Positions 9,125 through 43,251 of a stretch of DNA of 64,000 nucleotides are shown in pieces (within the stretch, counting starts at the first letter, position 1; each line of letters opens with the position of its first letter). Source of the stretch: Microbacterium sp. zg-Y1090 (GTDB lineage: Bacteria; Actinomycetota; Actinomycetes; Actinomycetales; Microbacteriaceae); NCBI RefSeq assembly GCF_030246945.1, contig NZ_CP126742.1, positions 372,001 through 436,000 of the forward strand. Direction: 5' to 3'. The notes beneath the pieces were generated by a model, which did not search any database, was not told where the DNA came from, and saw only the letters and a program-made list of their open reading frames with translations. The position numbers and the translations under genes are program-made.

Positions 9125-12100
9125 GTGAAGTCACCGACCGAGCGCCGCAGTCGAAGGCTGCCCACCGTGCTCACGGCAACCATGACCGCCGTTGCATTCG
9201 CGTTGAGCTCGCTCGTCGCGACCGCCCCCGCTGTCGCTTCCGCCCTGGACCCCGGACCCGTGGAGCTTCCCTCCGTGATCCCGTCGATCGAGCAGTGGCA
9301 GCAATCGGGCGGCTCCTTCGGCGCCGCCGACGACCTCGCGGTCGTTGTCGCCACCGAGAGCGAGCGCCTCGAGTCGATCGCAGGCATCCTGCGCGAAGAA
9401 CTCGCCGTGGATTACGCCGGGGTGAGCGTGACGGCCGGGCCGGGTGCAGCGGGTGACATCGTGCTTCGGCTGGATGAGGGCCGCACGGACCTCGAGACCG
9501 AGGGGTACGAACTCAAGGTCGGCGATCGCATCGAGATCGTCGCGGCGGACCCGGCCGGCGTCTTCTACGGCACCCGCACCGTCGTGCAGATGCTCATGCA
9601 GCAGGACACCCTGCCGCAGGGCTCTCTCATCGACGTGCCGGAATACGAGGAGCGCGGCGTCACCGTCTGCGCCTGCGTGATCAACATCTCCACGGAATTC
9701 ATGGACCGTCTCATCGAGGAGATGGCCTTCCTCAAGCTCAACACGATGCTCGTGGAGTTGAAGGTCAAGGTCGACGCCTATCCAGAGACCAACACCTGGT
9801 CGTACTACACCAAGGACGACATCACCGCCCTCGTGGCGAAGGCCGGCGCCTACGGCATCGACGTCATCCCGGAGATCAACTCTCCCGGTCATATGGAAAT
9901 CTGGCTGGAGAACAAGCCGGAATTGCAGTTGACCAATGAGCGGACCGGGGCCAAGGACGAGGTCCGCATGGACATCACCAAGCCCGAGTCGTTCGAGTTC
10001 TACGCCGACTTGATCGATGAGTACTTCGACGTCTTCACGACCGAGTACTGGCACATGGGCGTCGACGAGTACATGCTCGGCAGCGGCTACGCCAACTTCC
10101 CCCAGGTCAAACGCTTCGCGGAGGCGGAGTTCGGTGCCGGTGCTACGGAGAACGACGTCGTCGCGTGGTACGTCAACAAGGTCAACGACTACGTCAAGTC
10201 CAAAGACAAGAAGCTGCGCATCTGGAATGACGGTGTCATCACCGACAACCAGTTCGTCGACTTCGACACCGACATCATCGTCGAGCATTGGAACCCGGCG
10301 GCATCCACCGTCAAGCCTCAGCAGTTCATCGATTGGGGGCACCAGGTCGCCAACATCTCCAACTCGCTCTACATGGTGCGTGGCGGCTACGGGGTCAACT
10401 CGCAGCGTCTCTACGAGCAGGGCTGGACCCCGGAGGTCTTCTACGACCAGACCGTCACCCGTGGTACCGATCAGATCCTGGGCGCGCGGATGAGTATCTG
10501 GCCCGACGGTGGTACGCCGAGCGAGGCGGAGAACACCACCGAGGCACGCATGTTCGAACCGTTGCGTTTCGTCGCGCAGGCGACCTGGTCCGCCTCGCGG
10601 CCTTGGGCGACCTTCGCGGAATTCCGTGCCGACATGGACACCATCGGCCGTGCGCCGCTCTGGGACGAGGTGCAGCGCCAGCCGCTGCCGGACGGCACGT
10701 TCACGCTGACGGGTGCAGCCGGTGAGGGTGCTCTTGCAGCGGGTGAGGACGGAGGGCTCGTTCTGTCGGATGCCGGTGCGCCGTTGGCCTTCACTCGCAC
10801 CGCCGACGGTTACTACACCATCCGCTCCACCGACGGTCTCTGCCTCGATCTGGCGCGCGACGGCACCATGCGCCTGGATGTGCCGGTCGAGATCGGTGCC
10901 GACATCCGCTTGAGCACCTGTGCGACCACGACTCTGCAGAAGTGGCAGCTGCGCAAGGTCGACGGTGGCTACACGATCGTCAACGCCGCGAGCCAGCAGT
11001 TCGTGTCCGTTTCCCGCAGCCTGGTCGACGTGCCGGTGGCCCGCGAGGGGTTCAAGACCGTCGCCGACGGTCGTGTCGTGCAGACGCCCGGCGACTGGGG
11101 TAAGACGGTGTGGAAGGTGGTGGGTGACGTCGCGATGACGGCGACGCCGACTGCGCTGTCCGCCGTTCCCGGCACCAGCGGTGACGTCGCCGTCACTGTG
11201 ACGAACATGGCCGGCTCCGTGCTGGAAGGCGCGACGGTGCGCGTCGCCTCGGCAGCCGCCGGATGGACAGCGCTGCCGGCATCGGTGCCGCTGGAGCCGC
11301 TGGCGCCCGGGGAGATGGGGGAAGCGGCCTTTGTCCTGCACAACGTCAACTCGGCCTCCGGAACGGGCACGTTCGTGTTCGAGCTGGTGGGGGCCGATGG
11401 GACCGTCCTCACGCAGACCGCGGTCTCGACCGTCGGGGTGTGCTCGGCGGAAACGGTACGCCCCTCGGCCGCTGTGGCATCCTCCGAGCAGAGCAGCGGG
11501 GAACCGAGGCCGAGTGGTCCCGCCAGCGCGGTGATCGACGGTGACCCGGCGACCTACTGGCACTCCCAGTACTCACCGGTCGAGCCGCGACATCCGCACT
11601 CGGTCGTCATCGACCTGGGCGCCGATGAGTCCGTGTGCGGTCTGTGGTACACGGCGCGGTCCGGCGGAGCCGGCACCGGTGCGGCGAACGGGCGCATCGA
11701 CGAGTACGACGTGTATGTGTCGAGCACTGTGGCAACGGTGAACGGTGACTGGGGGGAGCCTGTCGTCAGCGGTGCCTTCCAGAACACCGCAGACGCACAG
11801 CTGGCGGCCTTCCCTGCCCAGGAGGCGCGCTACATCAAGCTCGTCTCCCGGAGCGCGATCAACGGCCAGCCGTGGGCGACCATCGGCGAGTTGGCGGCCG
11901 CGGGTCCTGCCGCGGCGATCCCGGTGTTCGATGAGGCGGAGATCGATCTGAGCGCGGCGAGCGTTCAGGCCGGCGGTGAGGTCGCCGTCTCGGGCACCGG
12001 GTTCGCCCCCGGTGAAGCGGTGAGCTTCACGCTGGGGCAGCCGGTGGCCACGATGAGCCGTGCGGCCGCGGCGGCCAGCCTGCTGGAGTTGTCTGCGGAT

Positions 12101-12463
12101 GCCGGTGGTGCCTTCAGCGGCGTGGTGGTCATCCCGCCGGCCACGGCAGCGGGCACGTACGTGCTCGCGGCGGTCGGAGCGGTGTCAGCCGCCCAGGCAA
12201 GCGGGACCCTGGCGGTCACCGCGGCGCCAGCCCGACCTGGCGACGTCCCCGCGGCGCCGGTGCAGCCCGGCGACCTCCCGGCGGTGCCGGGTGCCGGGGG
12301 AGGTGGGGGTGCGGAAGCCACCGACCCCGAGTCGGCTGGCTCGCTGGCCAACACCGGTGGTGAGCTGGCGGTTGCCGGCGGTATCGCCACGGGCGTGCTG
12401 CTGCTGATCATCGGCATCGGGCTGGCGCTCCTGAGGCGCCGCAGGGCGGTTCAGGCGTCCTGA
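9125..12463 (+). CDS. Secreted, sortase-anchored GH20 beta-N-acetylhexosaminidase, multidomain
   Basis: 1112 residues from a GTG start. Order: signal peptide (about 1-39, cleavage after AVAS); GH20 N-terminal subdomain (about 60-155); GH20 barrel (about 160-470) with EINSPGHM and the catalytic Asp314-Glu315 in WHMGVDEYM; ricin-like region (about 515-640, LCLDLARDG, LQKWQLRK); NEW3-like beta domain (about 670-760); F5/8 type C carbohydrate-binding domain (about 780-905, VIDGDPATYWHS); Ig-like domain (about 930-1035); Pro/Gly linker; LANTG (1074-1078), a membrane helix and RRRR tail, a sortase signal. It should release terminal GlcNAc/GalNAc or a disaccharide such as lacto-N-biose from glycans at the cell wall. 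Exact specificity is not readable. Regulated by the adjacent LacI. Confidence 0.93.
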   Translation: MKSPTERRSRRLPTVLTATMTAVAFALSSLVATAPAVASALDPGPVELPSVIPSIEQWQQSGGSFGAADDLAVVVATESERLESIAGILREELAVDYAGVSVTAGPGAAGDIVLRLDEGRTDLETEGYELKVGDRIEIVAADPAGVFYGTRTVVQMLMQQDTLPQGSLIDVPEYEERGVTVCACVINISTEFMDRLIEEMAFLKLNTMLVELKVKVDAYPETNTWSYYTKDDITALVAKAGAYGIDVIPEINSPGHMEIWLENKPELQLTNERTGAKDEVRMDITKPESFEFYADLIDEYFDVFTTEYWHMGVDEYMLGSGYANFPQVKRFAEAEFGAGATENDVVAWYVNKVNDYVKSKDKKLRIWNDGVITDNQFVDFDTDIIVEHWNPAASTVKPQQFIDWGHQVANISNSLYMVRGGYGVNSQRLYEQGWTPEVFYDQTVTRGTDQILGARMSIWPDGGTPSEAENTTEARMFEPLRFVAQATWSASRPWATFAEFRADMDTIGRAPLWDEVQRQPLPDGTFTLTGAAGEGALAAGEDGGLVLSDAGAPLAFTRTADGYYTIRSTDGLCLDLARDGTMRLDVPVEIGADIRLSTCATTTLQKWQLRKVDGGYTIVNAASQQFVSVSRSLVDVPVAREGFKTVADGRVVQTPGDWGKTVWKVVGDVAMTATPTALSAVPGTSGDVAVTVTNMAGSVLEGATVRVASAAAGWTALPASVPLEPLAPGEMGEAAFVLHNVNSASGTGTFVFELVGADGTVLTQTAVSTVGVCSAETVRPSAAVASSEQSSGEPRPSGPASAVIDGDPATYWHSQYSPVEPRHPHSVVIDLGADESVCGLWYTARSGGAGTGAANGRIDEYDVYVSSTVATVNGDWGEPVVSGAFQNTADAQLAAFPAQEARYIKLVSRSAINGQPWATIGELAAAGPAAAIPVFDEAEIDLSAASVQAGGEVAVSGTGFAPGEAVSFTLGQPVATMSRAAAAASLLELSADAGGAFSGVVVIPPATAAGTYVLAAVGAVSAAQASGTLAVTAAPARPGDVPAAPVQPGDLPAVPGAGGGGGAEATDPESAGSLANTGGELAVAGGIATGVLLLIIGIGLALLRRRRAVQAS

Positions 12464-32706: not shown

Positions 32707-34218
32707 TCAGCGCAGCGAGAGCGCGGTCCAGGACACCGGCGGCAGTGTCACCGAGAGGATGCCGTCGGCGATCGTCGCCGAGTCGTTCGGACGCACCCCC
32801 ACCCGCTCCGGGTTCTCGAGCGTGTTCGCGGCGTGCATGTCCTCGTCGTGCAGGAGGTGCGATTCCGCCACGACGACTGCGCCGAGGTGGGCGACATCGA
32901 TCTCTACCGAGATCGGCTCGGTGAGGCTGCGATTGACCAGGAACACCGCGGTGCCGCCGGTGGCCGCGTCGTGCGTCGCGACGGCGTCGACGACGGGCAC
33001 CGCGCCGAAGCGCTCGGTGTCGTACGTGGGCGACTCGACGGCGACCTCCAGGGCGACACCCTGCGCCAGGCGCGAGGTGATCGAGAACGGGAAGAACGTC
33101 GTCTGCCGCCAGGCGATGCCGCCGGGCTCGGTCATGATCGGCGCGATGACGTTGACCAGCTGGGCCAGGCTCGCGGCGGTCACCCGGTCGGCGTGGCGCA
33201 GCAGCGAGATCATGAGGCTGCCGAAGACGACGGCATCCACCACCGTGTATGCGTCCTCCAGCAGGCGCGGCGCGACCGGCCACACCTCGGGGTCGGTGAT
33301 CTTGTCCACCTCGTTGTAGCGGGTCTGGTACCAGACGTTCCACTCGTCGAACGAGATCATCATCGTCTTGTCGCTGCGTCGCAGCGCCTTGACGTGGTCG
33401 GCCGTCGCGGCGACCGAATCGATGAACCGGTCCATGTCCACCGCCGAGGCGAGGAACCCGGCGTAGTCGTCGCCGTCGGGCTCGTAGTACGCATGGCACG
33501 AGATGAAGTCGACGTGGTCGTACGTCTCCGAGAGCACGACCCGCTCCCACTCGCCGAAGGTGGGCATGCCTGCCCCCGAGCTGCCGCAGACCACCAGCTC
33601 CAGGTCGGGGTCGACCTGCCGCATCGCGCTGGCGGTCTTGCGGGCCAGGCGGGCGTACTCGTCGGCGGTGCCGTGCCCGAGCTGCCAGGGGCCGTCCATC
33701 TCGTTGCCCAGGCACCACATGCGGATGCCGTGGGGCTCGGGGCTGCCGTTGGCCACGCGTGCGTCGGACAGTGCGGTGCCCGAGCGGTGGTTGGCGTACT
33801 CCAGCACGTCGAGCGCCTCCAGCACGCCGCGCGTGCCGAGGTTGACCGCGTACATCAGCTCTGCGCCCACCTCGCGCGACCAGTGGGCGAACTCGTCCAG
33901 TCCCACCTCGTTGGTCTCGGTGGAGTGCCAGGCCAGATCCAGCCGCCGCGGACGCTCCTCCCGCGGCCCGACGCCGTCTTCCCACCGATAGCCGGAGACG
34001 AAGTTGCCCCCGGGGTAGCGGATCGTGCTGACCCCGAGCTCGGTCACCAGGGCGGCGACGTCGCGACGGAACCCGTGCTCGTCGGCATCCGCGTGCGAGG
34101 GCTCGTAGATGCCGTCGTACACGCACCGGCCGAGGTGCTCCACGAAGGAGCCGAACAGGCGGCGGTGAACCGGGCCGATGGCCAGGCGGGGGTCGATGGT
34201 CAAGCGTGCGTTACTCAT
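32707..34218 (-). CDS. Alpha-N-arabinofuranosidase, GH51
   Basis: 503 residues, no signal peptide: intracellular. The N-terminus VHRRLFGSFVEHLGRCVYDGIYEP and RYPGGNFVSGYRWEDGVGP are typical GH51. The acid/base is Glu173 in CLGNEMDGPW and the nucleophile Glu292 in SFDEWNVWY. The C-terminal beta-sandwich ends in SVTLPPVSWTALSLR. It removes alpha-L-arabinofuranose from imported arabino-oligosaccharides. Last gene of an operon with two ABC permeases and a binding protein upstream (52-base gap), under a divergent LacI gene. The transporter therefore probably imports arabinan or arabinoxylan oligosaccharides. Confidence 0.95.
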   Translation of the reverse strand: MSNARLTIDPRLAIGPVHRRLFGSFVEHLGRCVYDGIYEPSHADADEHGFRRDVAALVTELGVSTIRYPGGNFVSGYRWEDGVGPREERPRRLDLAWHSTETNEVGLDEFAHWSREVGAELMYAVNLGTRGVLEALDVLEYANHRSGTALSDARVANGSPEPHGIRMWCLGNEMDGPWQLGHGTADEYARLARKTASAMRQVDPDLELVVCGSSGAGMPTFGEWERVVLSETYDHVDFISCHAYYEPDGDDYAGFLASAVDMDRFIDSVAATADHVKALRRSDKTMMISFDEWNVWYQTRYNEVDKITDPEVWPVAPRLLEDAYTVVDAVVFGSLMISLLRHADRVTAASLAQLVNVIAPIMTEPGGIAWRQTTFFPFSITSRLAQGVALEVAVESPTYDTERFGAVPVVDAVATHDAATGGTAVFLVNRSLTEPISVEIDVAHLGAVVVAESHLLHDEDMHAANTLENPERVGVRPNDSATIADGILSVTLPPVSWTALSLR

Positions 34219-34270
34219 GGTCCTTCTCGGGTAGGCGTGCGGGTGGGGGAGGGGGCGGATGAGGGTCAGG

Positions 34271-35155
34271 TCACTTCAGGCTTCCGATCGAGAGTCCACC
34301 CTGCCAGTACCGCTGCAGGGTGAGGAAGGCGATCACCAGCGGGATCACGGAGACCAGGGAGCCGAGGATGATGATGCTCCACAGTGACGTGCCGCCGGCG
34401 TTGTTGGCCGATGCGATGCCCTGCCACAGGCCGATCCCCACCGTCACGGGGAAGAGCCGGTTGTCGGAGAGCATCGCCAGGGGCAGGAAGTAGTTGTTCC
34501 ACGACGCGACGATCGACAGCAACAGCACCGTGACGATCGCCGGACGCAGCATCGGCAGCGCCACCTGCACGAAGATGCGGAACTCGCTCGCCCCGTCCAC
34601 GCGCCCCGCGTCGAGCAGCTCGTCCGGAACGGCGTCCCGCGCGTACACGTGCATGAGGTACACGCCGAAGGGGTTGAGCAGTGTGGGGAGGATGACCGCC
34701 CAGATCGTGTTCGTGATGCCGAGCTCGGCGAACAGGATGAAGGTCGGGATCACCAGCGCCGTGGTGGGCACCATGACCGAGCCGAGCAGGATCGCGAAGC
34801 TCAGCTGGCGCCCGGCGAAGCGGTACTTCGCGAACCCGTAGCCGGCGGCGACGGCGAGGACGGTGGCGCCGAGCCCGCCGACGAAGGCGTACAGCGCGGA
34901 GTTGCCCAGCCACCGCAGGTAGATGCCGTCCTGGAACGTGAACAGCTGTGAGAAGTTGCCCACGTAGTCGACGACGTCGGCGAACCACAGTGCGCTGCCG
35001 CCGCCGAACAGTCCCGCAGCGGTCTTCGAGCTGTTGACGATGACCCACCAGAACGGGATGAGGAAGTAGACGACGAGGAAGCCGAGCAGGATCTGCATCG
35101 GCAGATACCGGCGCCGTGCGGCCGCGCGACGGGACCGGTCGAGGGCGACGGTCAT
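34271..35155 (-). CDS. Sugar ABC transporter permease, MalG type
   Basis: 294 residues with six membrane segments (ILLGFLVVYFLIPFWWVIV to LVSVIPLVIAFLTLQRYW). The inner-loop EAA motif appears as ELLDAGRVDGASEFRIFVQVALPMLRP, the ATPase contact. C-terminal GGLSIGSLK is the usual ending of the MalG group. ATG overlaps the upstream permease stop (ATGA), so both permeases are made together. No ATPase gene is in the operon; such systems use a shared MsiK-type ATPase encoded elsewhere. Confidence 0.95.
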   Translation of the reverse strand: MTVALDRSRRAAARRRYLPMQILLGFLVVYFLIPFWWVIVNSSKTAAGLFGGGSALWFADVVDYVGNFSQLFTFQDGIYLRWLGNSALYAFVGGLGATVLAVAAGYGFAKYRFAGRQLSFAILLGSVMVPTTALVIPTFILFAELGITNTIWAVILPTLLNPFGVYLMHVYARDAVPDELLDAGRVDGASEFRIFVQVALPMLRPAIVTVLLLSIVASWNNYFLPLAMLSDNRLFPVTVGIGLWQGIASANNAGGTSLWSIIILGSLVSVIPLVIAFLTLQRYWQGGLSIGSLK

Positions 35156-36096
35156 GACAGGAAGCTCCCTCGCTTGCGCGTGATGAACAGGAAGATGTAG
35201 ACGCACACGAAGACCACCGCGCCGAGGGCGAACGAGATCGCGCTGCCGTAGTTGTAGTTGGCCAGCGCGAAAGCCTGCTGATACGCGTACATGTTCGGTG
35301 TGAAGTCCGCCGGGATGGCGCCCGCGGCGAGATATCGCAGGATCTGGGGTTCGTTGAAGAACTGCAGGGTGCCGATCAGGGCGAACACGAGGATCAGCAC
35401 GAGGGCCGGGGCGATGAGGGGGATCTTGATGCGCAGCACGATCTGCCACTGGCTCGCACCGTCGATGCGCGCCGCTTCGTACAGCGTCGGATCGATGCCC
35501 TGCAGCGCCGCGTACAGGATGATCATGTAGTACCCGGCCCACTGCCACGTCACGATGTTGAGCAGGCCGAAGAAGATCAGGTTGCGGCTGAGGAAGTCGG
35601 GCCCGACCAACCCGAACATCCCGAACAGCTCGGCGACGGGGCCGAAGCTCTTGCTGTACAGGAACCCCCACATGAGCGCCCCGATGACGGCGGGGATCGC
35701 ATAGGGCAGGAAGATCATCAGCCGGGAGAAGCGCGCGAAGGCGCCGGTGACGACGTCGAGGATGAGCGCCACGGTGAGCGAGACGGCCATCTGCAGCGGG
35801 ATCAGCACCAGCGAGAACCGCAGGACGAACCAGATTCCATCGAGGAAGTTGGGGTCGGTGAACGCCTTGGCGTAGTTGGCGATGCCGACGAAGCGGGTGC
35901 CGCCGATCAGCTGGTTCTGGAACAGGCTCAGGTACAGCGCGAACAGCAGCGGCGCGACGAGGAACGCCAGGAAGACGACGGCGAACGGGGCGACGAACCC
36001 CCAGCCCACGAGGCTCTGGCGGCGAGGGCTGCGGCGACGGCGGGGCGGGGGCGCGGCGGCGACGGCCGGGGCGCTCTGGGCGAGGTCAACGGTCAT
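35152..36096 (-). CDS. Sugar ABC transporter permease, MalF type
   Basis: 314 residues; ATG at 36096 chosen because the conserved part begins shortly after and a GAGGA site precedes it. Arg-rich cytoplasmic N-terminus, then six membrane segments (WGFVAPFAVVFLAFLVAPLLFALYLSLF to FVCVYIFLFITR). The EAA loop is LYEAARIDGASQWQIVLRIKIPLIAP. Inner-membrane half of the arabino-oligosaccharide importer, paired with the MalG-type permease downstream and the lipoprotein receptor upstream. Confidence 0.95.
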   Translation of the reverse strand: MTVDLAQSAPAVAAAPPPRRRRSPRRQSLVGWGFVAPFAVVFLAFLVAPLLFALYLSLFQNQLIGGTRFVGIANYAKAFTDPNFLDGIWFVLRFSLVLIPLQMAVSLTVALILDVVTGAFARFSRLMIFLPYAIPAVIGALMWGFLYSKSFGPVAELFGMFGLVGPDFLSRNLIFFGLLNIVTWQWAGYYMIILYAALQGIDPTLYEAARIDGASQWQIVLRIKIPLIAPALVLILVFALIGTLQFFNEPQILRYLAAGAIPADFTPNMYAYQQAFALANYNYGSAISFALGAVVFVCVYIFLFITRKRGSFLS

Positions 36097-36172
36097 GGAA
36101 TCCTCCGAGGAACGGGCGACGGATGCCGGGGAGCGTGGGCCGGTCCCCCCGGACCGGCCCACGCGGCGGGAT

Positions 36173-37528
36173 TCACTCGACGGTGAAGCCCTGCTCCTCG
36201 GCGTAGGCGACCACGTCCGCCTGCAGTCGCTCGGCCGCCTCGGAGCCCGTGACCGAGCCCTCGTTGATGGCCGCCAGCTGCTCGGTGAAGGCATCGAAGT
36301 AGTACTGCCCGAACGGGGTGTAGGTCATGCCGGTGTAGGCGTTGGCCGCCGGGACGTACACCTCTTTGTTGGCCTGCTGCCCACCGAAGAACGGCACCTC
36401 GTAGTCGACGAAGTCCGTCGAGTTCAAGGCGGTGAGGTTCAGCGGGAAGATGACCTGGTTCTGCCAGCCGTCCAGCAGCGACGCGTCATCGGCGTACACG
36501 CCGAATGCGACCTTCGCGGCCAGCTCGGGATCGCTCGCCTGGCTCGTGACCGAGAACGCCGAGCCGCCCCAGTTGACCGACACGGGGTTCGCGGCATCCC
36601 ACTGCGGCAGCGGGGCGACCTTCCACACTCCCGCGTCATCACCCTCGCCCACGCCGGCGCCGGTCAGATATCCCGGTGCCCACGCGGCGGAGATGTAGGT
36701 GGCGTAGTCGCCGCCGATGACGCCGGAGATGTACTCGGGGGTGAACTGGTCCTGCGTGCCCACGAGGCCCTTCTCCACCAGGCCCGCCCAGTAGTCGAGC
36801 ACCTCCTTCGAAGCATTGTCGTCGAGCGCGATGCCGATCGACTCGGGGGTCGCCGAGTCGTAGGTGAAGGGCTGTGCGCCGTTCTGGTACTGCAGCGCCA
36901 TCATGACCGCCGGCACGTTGGCGCCGAGGTCGCCGAACAGCGGCCCGCCCGCATCCTTCACCGTCTGGGCGGCCGTCTCGTACTCCGCCCAGGTGGTGGG
37001 CGGGGTGATCCCGTACTGCTCGAAGACGTCCGCGCGGTAGATCATGCCCATCGGGCCGCCGTCGACGGGAGCGCCGTACACGCCGTCTCCGACCGAGACG
37101 TCCTTCCACGCGCCCTCGCTGTAGTCGTCCTTGACGTCCTCGTAGCCGTAGTCGCTGATGTCGACGATCGCCTCCTGGATCTGGAAGGTCGGGATGCGGT
37201 CGGCCTCGATCATGATGACGTCGGGGGCGCCGGTGCCCGCGGTGATCGCCGTCTGGAACTTGTCGTACTCGTCGCCGCCCTGACCGACGTTGGTCCAGCA
37301 CACCTGCACGTCGTCGCTCTGCTCGTTGAAGTTGTCGACGACCAGCTCCATGTTCGGGTACCAGGCCCACATGGTCACCACGGGCAGATCGGTCTTGGGG
37401 ATGGTGTTGGTGCAGTTGGTGGCGTCGTTGCCTCCGGAGGCGGTGCCTCCCTGCTGCTCCGAGCACGACACGAGGGTGCCGGCCAGGACGATGGTCGCTG
37501 CCGCGGCCAAGACTTTCGTGGTCTTCAC
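36173..37528 (-). CDS. Extracellular sugar-binding lipoprotein
   Basis: 451 residues from a GTG with a strong GAAAGGAAG ribosome-binding site. The lipobox VLAGTLVSC places the lipid-modified Cys at residue 22, so it is tethered outside the membrane. The mature part is a family 1 solute-binding protein (VTMWAWYPNMELVVDNFNE..DDVQVCW; IYRADVFEQYGITPPTTWAEYETAAQTVKDAG; PVSVNWGGSAFSV). Aromatic-rich ligand regions fit an oligosaccharide. First gene of the permease-permease-GH51 operon; an operator for the divergent LacI lies about 110 bases upstream of its start. Confidence 0.95.
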   Translation of the reverse strand: MKTTKVLAAAATIVLAGTLVSCSEQQGGTASGGNDATNCTNTIPKTDLPVVTMWAWYPNMELVVDNFNEQSDDVQVCWTNVGQGGDEYDKFQTAITAGTGAPDVIMIEADRIPTFQIQEAIVDISDYGYEDVKDDYSEGAWKDVSVGDGVYGAPVDGGPMGMIYRADVFEQYGITPPTTWAEYETAAQTVKDAGGPLFGDLGANVPAVMMALQYQNGAQPFTYDSATPESIGIALDDNASKEVLDYWAGLVEKGLVGTQDQFTPEYISGVIGGDYATYISAAWAPGYLTGAGVGEGDDAGVWKVAPLPQWDAANPVSVNWGGSAFSVTSQASDPELAAKVAFGVYADDASLLDGWQNQVIFPLNLTALNSTDFVDYEVPFFGGQQANKEVYVPAANAYTGMTYTPFGQYYFDAFTEQLAAINEGSVTGSEAAERLQADVVAYAEEQGFTVE

Positions 37529-37627: not shown

Positions 37628-37643
37628 TGTACAACGTTGTATA
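37628..37643. promoter_or_regulatory. LacI operator over binding-protein promoter
   Basis: The 12-bp perfect palindrome TACAACGTTGTA (37630-37641) overlaps a minus-strand extended -10 (TGATATACA, hexamer at plus 37638-37643) aimed at the binding-protein operon. The 16-bp window matches the operator-like site at 43067-43082 at 13 of 16 positions. For the LacI gene itself, TCAACA (37685-37690) and TAGAGT (37708-37713), 17 bases apart, form a separate plus-strand promoter. Confidence 0.8.
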
Positions 37644-37746
37644 TCAACGTGTGGAAAGTAGCTTCCCAGCGCACTCCGGTGATGTCAACAGTCGGTTGGC
37701 CCGGCGCTAGAGTTGCGTGGCGGGCGGTGCGAGAACGGGGCAGGCG

Positions 37747-38760
37747 ATGGGTTCGACGATGCACGACGTTGCCCGGCTCGCGGGGGTGTCGATCAAGACC
37801 GTCTCCAACGTCATCAACGATTATCCGCACGTGCGACCCGAGACCCGATCCCGCGTGCAGGCGGCGATCGACGAGCTCGACTATCACCCGAACCTGTCGG
37901 CGCGTGGACTGCGGTCGGGCAAGACCGGGGTCATCGGACTGGCGGTGCCGGCGCTGCGAGAGAACTACTTCGCCGAGCTCGCCGACGCCATCATCCGCGC
38001 GGCGGAGAAGCGCGGCCTGGGGGTCGTCGTGGAGCAGACCAGCGGCGACCGCGACACCGAGCTCGCCGCCGTTTCCGGTCGCCGCCAGCGGTTCATGGAC
38101 GGGCTGTTGTTCAGCCCCGTCGCCCTCGGCCAGCAGGACGCGCACGTGCTCGACGCACCATTCCCGCTCGTGCTGCTGGGCGAGCGCATCTTCGGCGGTC
38201 CCACCGACCACGTCGCGATGCACAACGTCTCGGCAGCCGAGGCTGCGGTTGCGCATCTCATCGACACCGGGCGGCGCCGCATCGCCGTGGTGGGCGCGGC
38301 GGCCGAGGACGAGGACGGCGAGGCGAGTTCAGCGAGCCTGCGGCTGCGCGGCTACCGCCGGGCGCTCGAGGCGGCCGGCATCCCGTTCGACCGTCGGCTC
38401 GTGCGCCCGGCCGAGGGGTGGAACCGGCAGTCCGGAGCGGCGGCGCTGCACGGTCTCGTGGCCGACGGGGTGGCGTTCGACGCCGTGTTCGCGCTGAACG
38501 ACACGCTCGGGCTGGGGGTGTTGCGGGCGCTCGGTGAGGAGCACATCGCCGTACCCGAGCACGTCGCCGTCATCGGATTCGACGACATCGACGAGGCGCG
38601 GTTCTCGGTGCCGTCGCTGTCGAGCGTCGAGACGGGCCGCGAGCAGATCGCCGAGATCGCGGTGCGGCTGCTCGTCGAGCGGATCGCCGAGAAGGACGAC
38701 CGCCTGCCGCCCCGCACGATCAAGCCCGACTTCACGGTCGTTCGTCGCGAGTCGTCCTGA
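37747..38760 (+). CDS. LacI family regulator (arabinoside locus)
   Basis: 337 residues from the ATG at 37747. A GTG at 37717 lies too close to the -10 TAGAGT to be transcribed. Helix-turn-helix STMHDVARLAGVSIKTVSNVINDYPHVRPETRSRVQAAI, hinge DYHPNLSARGLRSGKT, and a sensor domain ending VAVIGFDDIDEARFSVPSLSSVETGREQIAE. Divergent from the arabino-oligosaccharide transporter/GH51 operon and next to a perfect palindrome, so it is its likely repressor. A similar palindrome upstream of the esterase gene at 42938 suggests a second target. Followed by repeat copy B. Confidence 0.94.
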   Translation: MGSTMHDVARLAGVSIKTVSNVINDYPHVRPETRSRVQAAIDELDYHPNLSARGLRSGKTGVIGLAVPALRENYFAELADAIIRAAEKRGLGVVVEQTSGDRDTELAAVSGRRQRFMDGLLFSPVALGQQDAHVLDAPFPLVLLGERIFGGPTDHVAMHNVSAAEAAVAHLIDTGRRRIAVVGAAAEDEDGEASSASLRLRGYRRALEAAGIPFDRRLVRPAEGWNRQSGAAALHGLVADGVAFDAVFALNDTLGLGVLRALGEEHIAVPEHVAVIGFDDIDEARFSVPSLSSVETGREQIAEIAVRLLVERIAEKDDRLPPRTIKPDFTVVRRESS

Positions 38761-38807: not shown

Positions 38808-38935
38808 ACCGCTGCGACCTCACCTCACGGCCGAGACCGCAGCTGACGGCCGAGACCGCAGCTGACGGTGAGACCTCATCTGAGGGCCGAGACCGTGGGT
38901 GAAATCCGCTGTCTCGGCCGCCGGCTGTCGTCTCA
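38808..38935. repeat. Palindromic repeat, copy B, with tandem 19-bp expansion
   Basis: Inverted relative to copies A and C. Positions 38883-38935 hold the hairpin (GGCCGAGAC at 38885-38893, GTCTCGGCC at 38911-38919, TGGGT inside). Ahead of it four 18-19 bp units follow one another: 38808-38826 (degenerate), 38827-38845 and 38846-38864 (identical, ACGGCCGAGACCGCAGCTG), 38865-38882. It lies between two convergent genes and its end overlaps the stop of the WxLIP-like gene by three bases. Confidence 0.85.
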
Positions 38936-40150
38936 CGGGCGGGGCGGGGCGGCGGCGGGCTCGGTGTCGGCAGCGACGTGCGCGGTGTCGGTGGCGGCGG
39001 CCGGCGCCGCATCGGCGTCCGCAGCCGGTGGGGCCGGCGTGCCCTCGGTGGCCTTCGCCGCGGCGACGGCGGCGTCGATGCGGGCCTGCACGCGCGCGGC
39101 AGACCGGGCCCGCAATGCGCGGATGGCGAAGAAACCGCCCACCAGCAGGGCGAGGAGCGCGAGCTGCGACCACGGGATGGTCCAGACGGTGAACTCCGCG
39201 GTGGTCGCGGCCAGCGCGGCATCCACCTCGTCTTCTCCGACGACCAGCGGGGTGGCCGTGACGGTGCCCCAGCTGAAGAACGTCGGCCACACCGGCACCT
39301 CCACCGTGGTGGACTGGGCCTGGCCGGGGAGGATCTCGCGGCTCTCGGTCGCAGCAGACGCGGCCAGGATGCCGAAGGGGCCGCTCACCGCGGTGTCGGT
39401 CTCGGCACCCAGCCGCACGTTGCCGTCGTTGGACAGCGCATAGGTCACCGTCACGGTGCCCGGAGCGAAGGGGTTCCAGGAGGGCGTGTAGGTGGCTGTC
39501 GTTCCGTCGGGAACGACGGATGCCACGATGTCGCCGCTGACCCGGAGGTGAGCGCGCACCCCCACCCGGGAGGCCAGCTGCACCGCGTCGGAGTCGGCGG
39601 GGACGAGTTCGGCCACGATACCGGCCGGGTGGTCGCCCGGGGTGGCGTTGGCGGGCACCTCGACGCGCACCGGGATCGTCACGGTGGTCTCGGCGGGGAC
39701 CTCGAGCACGATGCCGCCACCGTCGCGCGCTGTCGCGCCGTCGACGCTTCCCACGGTGATCCAGGCGCCTCCGCCGGTCGCCGGCTCGTCGGCGGGAGCG
39801 AGGTCGAAATTGCCGTCGGCGCTGACGGTGCCGTCGCCTGGGTAGACGGCGTAGGTTGCCGGCTGCGGGCCGAAGTTGGTCAGCGCGACGAGGTCGTCCA
39901 CGGCCGCCCCGCCGTCGATGGTGTGCCGCAGCGACACCCGGCCGTCGGGGCCTTCCGCGCCGGCGGGCTGCAGCGCCCACGTCGTGCCGGTCTCGCCGGT
40001 GGTGTCGTCTGCGGCCGCCGTGGCGACGGCGGCGGCGACCCCGGCCGTGCCAGTCGTCCCGGCGGATGTCACGGCGGTCGCCGCAGCCGCAGTGGGGGCG
40101 GCGACGAGGGCAGCGGCCACGGCGAGGGCGAGGGGCAGTCGGGAGGTCAT
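38933..40150 (-). CDS. WxLIP/DUF916-like cell-surface membrane protein
   Basis: 405 residues from an ATG with a GGAG site. Signal peptide (about 1-25, Ala-rich), then two beta-rich domains. The first, about 55-170 (TTWALQPAG..RVSLRHTIDGGAAVDDLVALTNFGPQPATYAVYPGDGTV), resembles the DUF916 peptidoglycan-binding domain of WxL-interacting proteins. The second, about 175-310 (LEVPAETTVTIPVRVEVPANATPGDHPAGIVAELV), is the following Ig-like domain. A membrane helix (WSQLALLALLVGGFFAI, about 322-340) and a roughly 60-residue basic, then Ala/Pro-rich, cytoplasmic tail end the protein. In Firmicutes such proteins hold WxL-domain proteins at the wall. Here it is encoded 67 bases after an esterase with a WxL-like C-terminus, so it is the likely anchor. 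Family assignment is by pattern, not search. Confidence 0.78.
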   Translation of the reverse strand: MTSRLPLALAVAAALVAAPTAAAATAVTSAGTTGTAGVAAAVATAAADDTTGETGTTWALQPAGAEGPDGRVSLRHTIDGGAAVDDLVALTNFGPQPATYAVYPGDGTVSADGNFDLAPADEPATGGGAWITVGSVDGATARDGGGIVLEVPAETTVTIPVRVEVPANATPGDHPAGIVAELVPADSDAVQLASRVGVRAHLRVSGDIVASVVPDGTTATYTPSWNPFAPGTVTVTYALSNDGNVRLGAETDTAVSGPFGILAASAATESREILPGQAQSTTVEVPVWPTFFSWGTVTATPLVVGEDEVDAALAATTAEFTVWTIPWSQLALLALLVGGFFAIRALRARSAARVQARIDAAVAAAKATEGTPAPPAADADAAPAAATDTAHVAADTEPAAAPPRP

Positions 40151-40217
40151 GTGTCTCCTGAGGGTGGCGCGGCCGGCCGGTGTGTGTCGGCCGGCCGCGC
40201 CCGGGTCGGTCCTCGTC

Positions 40218-42938
40218 TCAGTCGACGGGGAACAGCGAGATGGTGAGTGTTCCGGTGTAGGTGCCGGGCTGGGTGTCCACGGGGACTTCCAGCACGAGTC
40301 CTGCGCCGAGTATGGCCGAACCGAACCGTCCTTCGGCAGTGGCCGAGGCCAGTTCACCGGGAGTGTCCAGGCCCGGGCCGCCGGCGAGCACGGTGGCGAC
40401 GGGGTCGCCGGCGCTGAGCCCGGGGCGGGGGGTGAGCACGCGGGGTGTCCATCCGAAGTGGTCGGCGGTGACCGTTTGGCCGGCGGAGGTGAACGCGTCG
40501 GCGTGGCCGGAGACGGCCCAGCCTCCGACGCCTGCCTGCTGCGCGGTGCGGGAGTCGGTGACGGTCACCTCGGGCAGTTCGCCGGTGAACCGCAGGCGGT
40601 TTCCGGCGTTGTCCGGGCCGGCCAAGGCGATGCCGTCGCCGTAGTCGGCGACCGTCAGGGCCAGGGAGCCGTTCTCGCCTTCCGGGACGACAGCGGTGAC
40701 GGGGATGCCATCACTGGTGTCCGCAGCGAACAGACGCGGCAGGAAATCGATCAGCGACTTCTGCCATACATCCCAGCTGTGCGGGCCAGGAATCAGGGGC
40801 GCGAACTCGTGCGCGATTCCCCGATCCTCCAGCGCGGCGATGAGGCCCAACGTCGGCTGGTAGGTGAAGTCCTGGATGTCGCCGCTGTAGATGCGCAGCA
40901 GCTTGGTCCCCGCGTTGATGGCTTCGACATCCGCGCTGGCGGGCGGCGCGCTGAACGCCGAGAACGCTCCGATATAGCCGAACTCGCCGGGGTGGGCGTA
41001 GAGCGTGCTCAACGCGTGCCCCGAACCCATCGAGAGACCTGCCAGTGCCCGCTGGTCGGGCTCGGCGCTGACGTTGTACTGCTCCTCGGCCGTCGGCGCG
41101 ATGCGCTGGAGCATCTCGTTGGGGAAGTTCACCCCGTTGCCGTTGGCCATCACCACCACCATCGGCACGATCGTCCCGCGCAGGTAATGGTTGTCGAGGA
41201 TCTGCGCGGCCCGACCGACCTCGATCCAGTCCGACCAGGTCTGCCCGCCGCCGTGCTGCAGATACAGCACGGGGTAGGCCTCCGCGCGCTCGGCGTCGAA
41301 CCCCGGCGGGGTCCACACGTACGCGGAGCGGTCGGCTTCGCCGGCCGTGCTGCGGTAGGTCATCGTCGTGACGGCACCGCGATCCGCCTCGGGGACATCG
41401 CCGGTGTACTCGGCGCGCAGCCCCTCGCCGGCCACGTAGAACGTGCTCCAGTTCGGTTCGATCGTCACCTTCGTGGGGTTGCTGAGGTCCTTGTGGTCCA
41501 CGCCGTCGACGACGAACTTGTAGTAGTACGAGCCGCCGTCGAGGGGCCCGACCGTCACCCGCCAGCGATCGCCCACCTTCGTCATCGGAAGGCGCGGCCA
41601 ACTGCCGCCGGCGCCCCAGTTGCCCCAGACCGTCACGTTCTTCGCGTCGGCGAACTGGGTGCCGGTCTCGAAGGTGATGATGCCGTTGTCGTCGATCCAG
41701 GGGGTGGGGGTGGTGCCGGGTGCGGGCAGGGAGTGCGGTCCCTCGACGGGGAGGTGCCCGTTGCTCGGCCCGCCGTCGGTGGTGTCTTGGAACACGCGGG
41801 AGGCGAAGTCGCGCAGGTTCTCCTGCCAGCTCTCCCAGGTGCCGCCGCTGTCGGGGTTGGCGCCGTCCATCTCGTATTCGACGCCGGCCGCGCTCAACTT
41901 GTCCGCGAGGCTCACGGTCTGGTTGTACGCGCGGTCGGTGGTGTTGCCGACGTACAGGCGCACCAGGTCGGTGCCCGCGTTGATCTGCGCCGCCTTCGCG
42001 GCGCTGACCGATGCGGTCAGGCGCCCGGAGAACGACCCGACCTGGGAGAACTCCCCGGGGTCGGTGACCATGAGGGTCAGCGCCTGCGACGCGCCGCGGC
42101 CGATGCCGGCGATGGCCTGGTCGGCGGGGTCGGACGACACGTTGAAGCCGTCCCGGGCGGCGGGCAGGAGGTTGTCGAGTACCTCGGTGCGCGCTTCGGA
42201 CGAGTCGCCATCACCCATGACGACCACCATCGGCTCCAGGTCGCCTTCGACGGCGAGGTTGTCGAGGATCTGCGCGGCGCGCCCAAGTTCGCTCCACTCG
42301 GCAGGGCTCTGCCCGGCATCCTGCAGCAGGTAGAGCACCGGGTACGGCTCGGCGCGGTCGGCGTCGTAGCCGGGCGGCGTCCACACGTACGCGGAGCGTT
42401 CCTCCTCGGCGACCGTGCTGTCGTAGGTCAGGGTCTCGATCTGCCCACCTGCGGGCACATCGGCCATCCAGGCGACCTCGTCACCGGGGACGAAGAACGT
42501 GTTCCACGCCGGCTTGGACGTCACCGCCTGCGGGCTGTCGGGGTTGCGGAACCCGACCTTTTCGCCGGAGGCCAGCGTCGCCGTGTACTGGTAGTAGTAC
42601 AGACCGGGCTCCAGCGGGCCGATCGTCGAGGTCCAGCTGCCGCCGGAGAGTCCGGAGTTCAGCTGCGCCCACTGCTTGTTCTGCGCGAGGTTCCCCTCCA
42701 CCGCGATCGCGGCGGGGGTGGCGCCCACGGCGGCATCCGCTGCGGCCGCCGGAACCGTGAAGCGATGCACGCCGTCCGCGGGCATCGAGAGCCACGGGTC
42801 TTCGCCCGGGGCGGCCATCGCGGGCTGCGCCACCAGCGCGCCGCCCAGTCCCACGGCCGCAGCGGTGCCGAGTGCGATCCACCTGCGGTGGCTTCGCTCG
42901 GCACCTCCCCGGCCTCTGATCGTCTTGCCTGACATCAT
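40218..42938 (-). CDS. Secreted tandem CE1-type esterase with C-terminal WxL-like domain
   Basis: 906 residues from an ATG preceded by GGAG. Signal peptide ends near AQPAMAAP. Two homologous halves follow, each an Ig/CBM48-like domain plus a Fes/CE1 esterase domain (YVWTPPGYDADRAEPYPVLYLLQDAG and YVWTPPGFDAERAEAYPVLYLQHGGG). The second half has nucleophile Ser636 (AGLSMGS) and His in PGPHSW. In the first, the Ser position is Gly280 (AGIGRGAS) and the His is absent, so that half should be inactive. The last about 125 residues (TVTDSRTAQQ..GGWAVSGHADAF .. GTYTGTLTISLF; W807) read as a WxL-like beta domain. Likely a feruloyl or acetyl xylan esterase held at the wall by the next gene's product. 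The substrate is inferred from the neighbouring arabinofuranosidase locus. Confidence 0.85.
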   Translation of the reverse strand: MMSGKTIRGRGGAERSHRRWIALGTAAAVGLGGALVAQPAMAAPGEDPWLSMPADGVHRFTVPAAAADAAVGATPAAIAVEGNLAQNKQWAQLNSGLSGGSWTSTIGPLEPGLYYYQYTATLASGEKVGFRNPDSPQAVTSKPAWNTFFVPGDEVAWMADVPAGGQIETLTYDSTVAEEERSAYVWTPPGYDADRAEPYPVLYLLQDAGQSPAEWSELGRAAQILDNLAVEGDLEPMVVVMGDGDSSEARTEVLDNLLPAARDGFNVSSDPADQAIAGIGRGASQALTLMVTDPGEFSQVGSFSGRLTASVSAAKAAQINAGTDLVRLYVGNTTDRAYNQTVSLADKLSAAGVEYEMDGANPDSGGTWESWQENLRDFASRVFQDTTDGGPSNGHLPVEGPHSLPAPGTTPTPWIDDNGIITFETGTQFADAKNVTVWGNWGAGGSWPRLPMTKVGDRWRVTVGPLDGGSYYYKFVVDGVDHKDLSNPTKVTIEPNWSTFYVAGEGLRAEYTGDVPEADRGAVTTMTYRSTAGEADRSAYVWTPPGFDAERAEAYPVLYLQHGGGQTWSDWIEVGRAAQILDNHYLRGTIVPMVVVMANGNGVNFPNEMLQRIAPTAEEQYNVSAEPDQRALAGLSMGSGHALSTLYAHPGEFGYIGAFSAFSAPPASADVEAINAGTKLLRIYSGDIQDFTYQPTLGLIAALEDRGIAHEFAPLIPGPHSWDVWQKSLIDFLPRLFAADTSDGIPVTAVVPEGENGSLALTVADYGDGIALAGPDNAGNRLRFTGELPEVTVTDSRTAQQAGVGGWAVSGHADAFTSAGQTVTADHFGWTPRVLTPRPGLSAGDPVATVLAGGPGLDTPGELASATAEGRFGSAILGAGLVLEVPVDTQPGTYTGTLTISLFPVD

Positions 42939-43066: not shown

Positions 43067-43125
43067 TTTACAACGTAGTAAAGCCTCCGCACGGATATGT
43101 TGTCGATCCCCCCAAGCCCTGTCAA
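43067..43125 (-). promoter_or_regulatory. Esterase promoter and LacI-type operator
   Basis: Minus strand: TTGACA (plus 43120-43125), 17 bases, CAACAT (plus 43097-43102, a weak -10). Just downstream of the predicted start is the near-palindrome TTTACAACGTAGTAAA (43067-43082), 13/16 identical to the site at 37628-37643. The 385-base gap between the esterase and pgm genes otherwise holds only repeat copy C. Confidence 0.68.
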
Positions 43126-43180: not shown

Positions 43181-43251
43181 TGAAACGAATGCCGACAGCC
43201 GAGACCATGGGGAATACCCACTGTCTCGGCGGTCAGGATTCGTCTCAGCGC
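43181..43251. repeat. 71-bp palindromic repeat, copy C
   Basis: Same orientation and length as copy A; ungapped alignment, 57 of 71 identical by eye. Core stem GCCGAGAC (43198-43205) / GTCTCGGC (43223-43230) with a TGGG..CCCA inner stem. It lies 73 bases beyond the pgm stop codon and upstream of the esterase promoter, again at a 3' end. Confidence 0.85.

Follow-up and report, generated by a model that had tools for sequence, protein, structure and literature searches.

WxL proteins and the WxL-interacting proteins (WxLIPs) that accompany them have been described mainly from Firmicutes (>91% of 938 sequences) and gut commensals, where host adhesion is the function ascribed to them (parts of PMC9772566 and PMC10599100), and the use of plant polysaccharides was proposed for the csc clusters that encode them by Siezen et al. 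(in a passage of PMC1534035). The strings 'actinobacteri' and 'actinomycet' are absent from the main texts of PMC9772566 and PMC10599100. Here we analyze a 64,000-nucleotide stretch of the Microbacterium sp. zg-Y1090 genome (NZ_CP126742.1, positions 372,001 to 436,000; hereafter the window), in which the gene for a secreted esterase with a C-terminal WxL-like domain is directly followed by the gene for a WxLIP-like membrane protein. At a probability of roughly 70%, we propose that the esterase docks by this domain on its membrane partner and is likely kept on the cell surface with neither sortase nor a lipid anchor involved. The reading is carried, at the level of sequence, by the domain architecture, the operon-like adjacency of the two genes, the conservation of the pair, and the relationship of the two families to WxL and WxLIP proteins. 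The gene pair comprises the following features, all on the minus strand:

40218..42938, minus: secreted tandem CBM48/CE1 esterase with C-terminal WxL-like domain, 906 residues (PF00756, E 2.9e-29; relatives in the PDB)
41787..42644, minus: first CE1 repeat, residues 99-384, predicted catalytically dead (alignment to PDB 6rzo and 14 full-length homologues)
40728..41726, minus: second CBM48 and CE1 repeat, residues 405-737, catalytic motifs intact (alignment to PDB 6rzo and homologues)
40221..40727, minus: WxL-like domain, residues 738-906 (family alignments; hhalign 96.9%; AlphaFold2 pLDDT 92)
38933..40150, minus: WxLIP-like membrane protein, 405 residues (family profile versus EfmWxLIP1 in the PDB, E 7.2e-9; fold matches 9i1y_A/9i25_C)
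39530..39985, minus: first immunoglobulin (Ig)-like domain, residues 56-207, PGBD/DUF916 equivalent (predicted structure; region matched by PF06030 in the paralogue and relatives)
39176..39523, minus: second Ig-like domain, residues 210-325, corresponding to DUF3324/HBD in position and fold only (predicted structure, fold match)
39122..39181, minus: transmembrane segment, residues 324-343 (5 Lys/Arg in the next 15 residues, none in the preceding 15)

Both open reading frames singled out by the first-pass annotation of the window are present where it placed them. They run in the same direction with 67 nucleotides between them, and a GGAG/AGGAG Shine-Dalgarno-like motif, read by eye, precedes the ATG of each. 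The esterase has a signal-peptide-like N-terminus, contains VTDSRTAQQAGVGGWAV and ends in GTYTGTLTISLFPVD, and its motifs are as first described. So is the makeup of its neighbor, a protein with a signal-peptide-like start and a single hydrophobic segment.

On profile evidence, the C-terminal domain of the esterase is a distant WxL relative, part of a WxL-like branch and not WxL in the strict sense. The window domain carries the D-x-R that precedes the first tryptophan (D58 and R60, invariant in 42/42 aligned domain sequences), a Trp at residue 807 and the C-terminal end TYTGTLTISLFPVD. D-x-R was named as a feature of WxL1 by Siezen et al. 2006 (part of PMC1534035). In the set of loci described below, all 76 profile matches end 1-4 residues from the protein C-terminus. 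Neither the window domain nor the whole esterase matches the Pfam WxL model (PF13731) at E<=1, but 25 of the 42 aligned sequences do (best 2.2e-7), in an alignment that was chosen by a window-derived profile, draws some loci from a PF13731 search and includes the window's own, non-matching sequence. Aligned by hhalign with 12 Pfam-WxL matches, all of them missed by the window-derived profile, the window clade (39 sequences) gave a probability of 96.9% (E 1.8e-10, 129 columns), and controls with the partner family gave 2.1% and 0.2%. One further match (L051), which the window-derived profile had found, was left out of that set; the 13-sequence set with it gave 98.0%. Weighing against strict membership, two Trp-x-Leu motifs are not found: motif 1 has its Trp in 40/42 sequences, followed two residues on by Val (22) or Leu (11), and motif 2 has Trp in 0/42, with Leu, Phe, Val or Ile instead. 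For both reasons we label the domain 'WxL-like'. The first-pass claim of such a domain thus stands through the family profile, though not through a direct Pfam match or a second tryptophan. Pilins and other folds are listed as matches of the window domain, as are N-terminal domains of GH123 and related hexosaminidases. Neither the 50 listed matches nor the profile searches include the WxL chain of 9i25.

Profile and fold comparisons support placing the membrane protein with the WxLIP (DUF916) family. Its signal-peptide-like start is followed, in the predicted structure, by two Ig-like domains and then one transmembrane helix, which is the WxLIP layout, and at the top of its fold matches stand 9i1y_A and 9i25_C, the solved WxLIPs of Enterococcus, with both domains aligned. 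The DUF916 likeness first suggested for this protein is borne out at family level, where PF06030 is matched by 41 of the 43 aligned sequences, the window's own non-matching sequence being included; the window protein itself gave no PF06030 match at E<=1, also in a PF06030 search of its own genome. As to the DUF3324 half of the suggestion, an equivalent is recognizable by position and fold only: PF11797 is not listed for the window partner, nor among the 25 families listed of 63 for its relatives. The hydrophobic segment and basic tail are kept in 80/80 partners, with a segment mean hydropathy below 1.6 in one. As a separate observation, PF06030 (WxLIP_PGBD) is also over its cut-off in the control genome of Thermotoga maritima.

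The pairing of the two families extends well beyond this window. A domain match lies directly before the WxLIP in 75 of 80 partner genes, and the other five begin less than 100 nucleotides from a contig start. These genes come from 79 loci, the best 80 of 359 relatives, retrieved with one short peptide pattern from a WxLIP alignment; for several members of that alignment the domain had itself been the route of retrieval, and close relatives are numerous among the loci, so that 75/80 does not describe an even sample. We therefore also consider 246 genomes drawn evenly from the class, searched with a profile built from the four copies of the domain in the zg-Y1090 genome. These profile searches scored no more than 14 and 7 candidates in each genome, and the counts, which also take in fragments, are lower bounds. 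The domain profile has at least 108 matches in 45 of the 246 genomes. By comparison, the Pfam WxL model has 37 matches in 21 of them (13 genomes over the cut-off), and 12 of these 37 coincide with matches of the window-derived profile. Of at least 114 partner matches, 73 have the domain upstream, within 5 kb and on the same strand, and 73 of the at least 108 domain matches have the partner downstream. Counted by genome, the partner family is present in 43/45 genomes with the domain versus 20/201 without it (Fisher 5e-30), and the co-occurrence that the first-pass annotation had proposed surveying is thereby supported.

Records outside the sample add some detail. The nearest named relative, JASDDH010000003.1 (66% partner identity, 75% esterase identity), is labeled Planococcus sp. 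Planococcus is a Firmicutes name; the record is likely misnamed. The plasmid NZ_CP052758.1 of Cellulosimicrobium protaetiae carries a stand-alone WxL-like gene and a WxLIP beside LamG and GH43 genes, and because the pair sits on a plasmid, the module may move between strains. Two LamG neighbors tested on this plasmid lack the domain, and a tblastn search of plasmids with an actinobacterial Pfam-WxL protein gave no match. Of the 11 plasmid records found, 7 annotate the partner as 'DUF916 domain-containing protein'. For two carriers examined next to such genes, the names given are 'hypothetical protein' and 'RICIN domain-containing protein', so the WxL-like half goes unnamed in the public records inspected. 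A phage origin was set aside, there being no PHROGs match at E<=0.01 for domain or partner.

Retention by other known routes was considered for the esterase itself. It has no Cys and no LPxTG/LAxTG motif, and lipoprotein or sortase anchoring was rejected on this ground, in keeping with the original suggestion that neither is used; beyond residue 60, the highest hydrophobicity average over any 20 residues is only 1.33. Elsewhere in the window, a GH20 protein (9125-12460, plus strand) ends in LANTGG, then a hydrophobic segment, then RRRR, a LAxTG-type sortase signal. The sortase-anchored glycosidase reported in the first pass is upheld by this motif, but it is not among the two Gram_pos_anchor (PF00746) matches in the genome, both over the cut-off (C1:443779-443874 and 2120740-2120862). 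A DNA pattern for LPxTG codons, which is blind to the LANTG of the GH20 protein, had no match in the window (3.07 expected by chance). Judged from these signals, the window likely encodes both modes of anchoring side by side.

The domain is not particular to this esterase: it is carried by several enzyme families and by three other proteins of the same genome. The 3.07 Mb genome holds three paralogues of it (E 2.3e-59, 3.9e-53 and 1.4e-14), a fifth match at E 0.06 being left uncounted. The region equivalent to residues 738-906 ends a GH10 protein (C1:2817290) and a GH30 protein (C1:2810855), and the third copy is a small stand-alone secreted protein (C1:522246). The partner has one paralogue (35% identical, E 4.2e-34), which lies directly downstream of the stand-alone domain gene and is over the Pfam WxLIP_PGBD cut-off at 29.8 bits. 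There is thus one WxL-like gene in the window pair and likewise one in this second cluster, and the GH10 and GH30 carriers have no WxLIP adjoining.

That two of the four carriers in this genome stand apart from a WxLIP fits a different division of labor, in which the domain itself binds peptidoglycan and the WxLIP is an accessory, a helper in stability or secretion and not the anchor. Cell-wall binding has been published for Firmicutes WxL domains (parts of PMC5817068). Against this, the partner family accompanies the domain in 43/45 genomes, and the membrane segment with its basic tail is retained throughout the 80 partners (if weakly hydrophobic in one). We consider the accessory role rather unlikely; it overlaps with docking on the partner, since both contacts are possible.

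What the domain is attached to bears on a second alternative. Among 72 of the 75 upstream proteins (L115, L164 and L178 were left out), cargo at E<=1e-5 comprises alkaline phosphatase (34), CE1 esterase (17), ThuA (4), GH30 (4) and lytic polysaccharide monooxygenase (LPMO; 1), and 11 of the 72 frames are shorter than 280 residues, with little room beyond the domain. A second scan covered 34 proteins, of which 31 came from the best class-sample loci after three fragments were dropped, and three (the window esterase and the GH30 and GH10 proteins of the same genome, GH10 being counted twice) were added by hand. Besides GH10, GH30 and the esterase it found HtaA (3), GDPD (1) and metallophosphatase (1); these loci were cut 1.5 kb from the domain, and cargo is under-counted. 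A carbohydrate-binding module that targets the substrate, with the membrane protein an unrelated neighbor, would suit the glycan-active carriers (GH10, GH30, CE1, LPMO) and the hexosaminidase domains in the fold list. However, the domain also tails alkaline phosphatases (34/72), ThuA, GDPD and HtaA, ends stand-alone secreted proteins, and directly precedes a WxLIP in 75/80 cases. Such varied cargo disfavors a substrate-binding role; it was rejected as the main reading and appears improbable. Instead, the same pairing with many enzymes across many actinobacteria likely represents a general sortase-free surface retention of secreted enzymes. That the WxL resemblance is convergent, an independent incomplete-Ig domain sharing only its fold class and a membrane Ig partner, is very improbable: the window domain's missing direct PF13731 match and second tryptophan motif, and listed folds that are pilins and others and not WxL, would suit it, but a chain of matches joins the window profile to the Pfam-WxL matches (hhalign 96.9%), and family profile and fold alike mark the partner as a WxLIP.

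The cargo in the window is a predicted feruloyl-type esterase acting on plant polysaccharide. Its closest PDB relatives are the ferulic acid esterases 8bbp and 6rzn (E about 1e-40) and the CE1 protein 7b5v. The GxSxG nucleophile and catalytic His of CE1 feruloyl esterases are found together in repeat 2 only, which keeps AGLSMG (Ser636) and GPHSW (His720). In repeat 1, AGIGRG replaces GxSxG and a Gly stands where relatives with both motifs have His. The first-repeat Ser is absent in 10/14 full-length homologues and present in 4/14, and in these four (L132, L135, L137, L145) Ser and His motifs occur in both repeats. Because of this distribution, a twin enzyme seems to have turned into an enzyme plus a pseudo-enzyme.

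The surroundings of the pair bear on its predicted regulation. The relevant features are:

43069..43080, no strand: operator-like palindrome TACTACGTTGTA, upstream of the esterase (genome-wide pattern search)
37630..37641, no strand: same palindrome, TACAACGTTGTA, separating the LacI gene from the ABC-transporter operon (only other exact genome match)
37717..38760, plus: LacI-family regulator, predicted to bind both palindromes (PF00356, E 4e-20)
32707..37528, minus: sugar ABC transporter operon with arabinofuranosidase (PF01547, PF00528, PF06964)
36173-37528, minus: sugar-binding protein, within this operon
35152-36294, minus: second permease (open reading frame list only)
32707-34218, minus: arabinofuranosidase, within this operon

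Across the 3.07 Mb genome, the pattern TACNACGTTNTA is matched exactly at just two sites, of which one is a perfect palindrome and the other a near one; no exact palindrome occurs close to the GH10 and GH30 loci or the second cluster. Because this shared palindrome links the esterase promoter to the transporter and arabinofuranosidase operon, the locus may form a regulon devoted to side chains of the arabinoxylan type, in which the esterase would act outside the cell and import and trimming would serve the inside. A two-mismatch search gave 8 matches in L010 versus 1.6 in shuffles, 0/200 of which reached 8; several of the 8 are one site on both strands, and the result was not used for conclusions. 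Separately, a strong hairpin-forming stretch lies right after the WxLIP stop (38850-38935, minus strand; -42.2 kcal/mol, z -3.4) and holds the inverted units GCCGAGAC/GGTCTCGGC, similar units being visible by eye near 43200, upstream of the esterase.

Taken together, docking on the membrane partner would work as follows. The partner would sit in the bacterial cytoplasmic membrane as a type I protein with both Ig domains outside. It would lend a strand to the WxL-like domain, completing an otherwise incomplete Ig fold in which the domain's own last strand would end at the C-terminus; such strand completion is a published prediction for Enterococcus. At the surface, the intact second CE1 unit may strip arabinoxylan of ferulate or similar esters, while the dead first unit would be a binding module at most, and the LacI regulator would switch on the pair along with the sugar importer and the arabinofuranosidase. 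Docking in trans, either on this WxLIP or on the second one, might add the GH10 and GH30 carriers to form a small set of xylan enzymes at the surface. More tentatively, and at somewhat less than even odds, the WxL-like/WxLIP pairs of Actinomycetota could be a general sortase-free enzyme display, in which strand donation fastens a pilin-like incomplete Ig domain at the C-terminus of a secreted enzyme to a chaperone-like protein seated in the bacterium's own membrane, the WxLIP being the true membrane root. A published proposal has the WxLIP helix insert into the host membrane, which the conserved basic C-terminal tail would contradict.

If correct, this would describe a second, enzyme-carrying WxL branch spread through actinobacteria, provide laboratory organisms for testing WxLIP-WxL holding, the location of the WxLIP helix and strand pairing, and offer a portable enzyme display on the actinobacterial surface. 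Some actinobacterial partners are already named DUF916 in public records; enzyme-carrying pairs were not met in the literature searched, and no paper on actinobacterial WxL/WxLIP enzyme display was found among the literature matches listed. DUF916 and metallophosphatase genes near the actinobacterial metal-binding family Ang-2 (a section of PMC12537917) may be the same kind of pair.

Several known systems share elements with this locus. The CE1-CBM48 ferulic acid esterases (8bbp, 6rzn, 7b5v) have the same CBM48-like and CE1 organization and the Ser/His motifs of repeat 2, whereas the window esterase has two repeats, the first predicted inactive, and a WxL-like tail. Sortase-anchored enzymes such as the window GH20 protein share the predicted surface retention of a glycan-active enzyme, but the esterase lacks both their LPxTG/LAxTG signal and, beyond residue 60, any strongly hydrophobic stretch. 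Chaperone-usher pilins with their chaperones (e.g. the CfaE/CfaA complex, 6k73) also count among the closest known systems. The E. faecium WxLIP alone or with a long WxL protein (PDB 9i1y, 9i25) gives the best fold matches of the window partner, at only 12-13% identity and a root-mean-square deviation of 5.2-5.5. Closest in organization are the csc clusters of Lactobacillales and Bacillales, which, in the parts of the papers that describe them (Siezen 2006; Hassan 2022, 2023), likewise have a C-terminal WxL-type domain on a large secreted protein, a neighboring two-Ig-domain DUF916-family membrane protein, and small stand-alone WxL proteins. Unlike these, the actinobacterial domain lacks the second WxL tryptophan, DUF3324 is not seen by sequence, and the WxLIP is directly downstream, usually of one carrier, in actinobacterial hosts. 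Finally, the actinobacterial cargo is often catalytic (phosphatase, CE1, GH10, GH30, LPMO), whereas those same parts of the csc literature describe mostly adhesin-like or binding domains.
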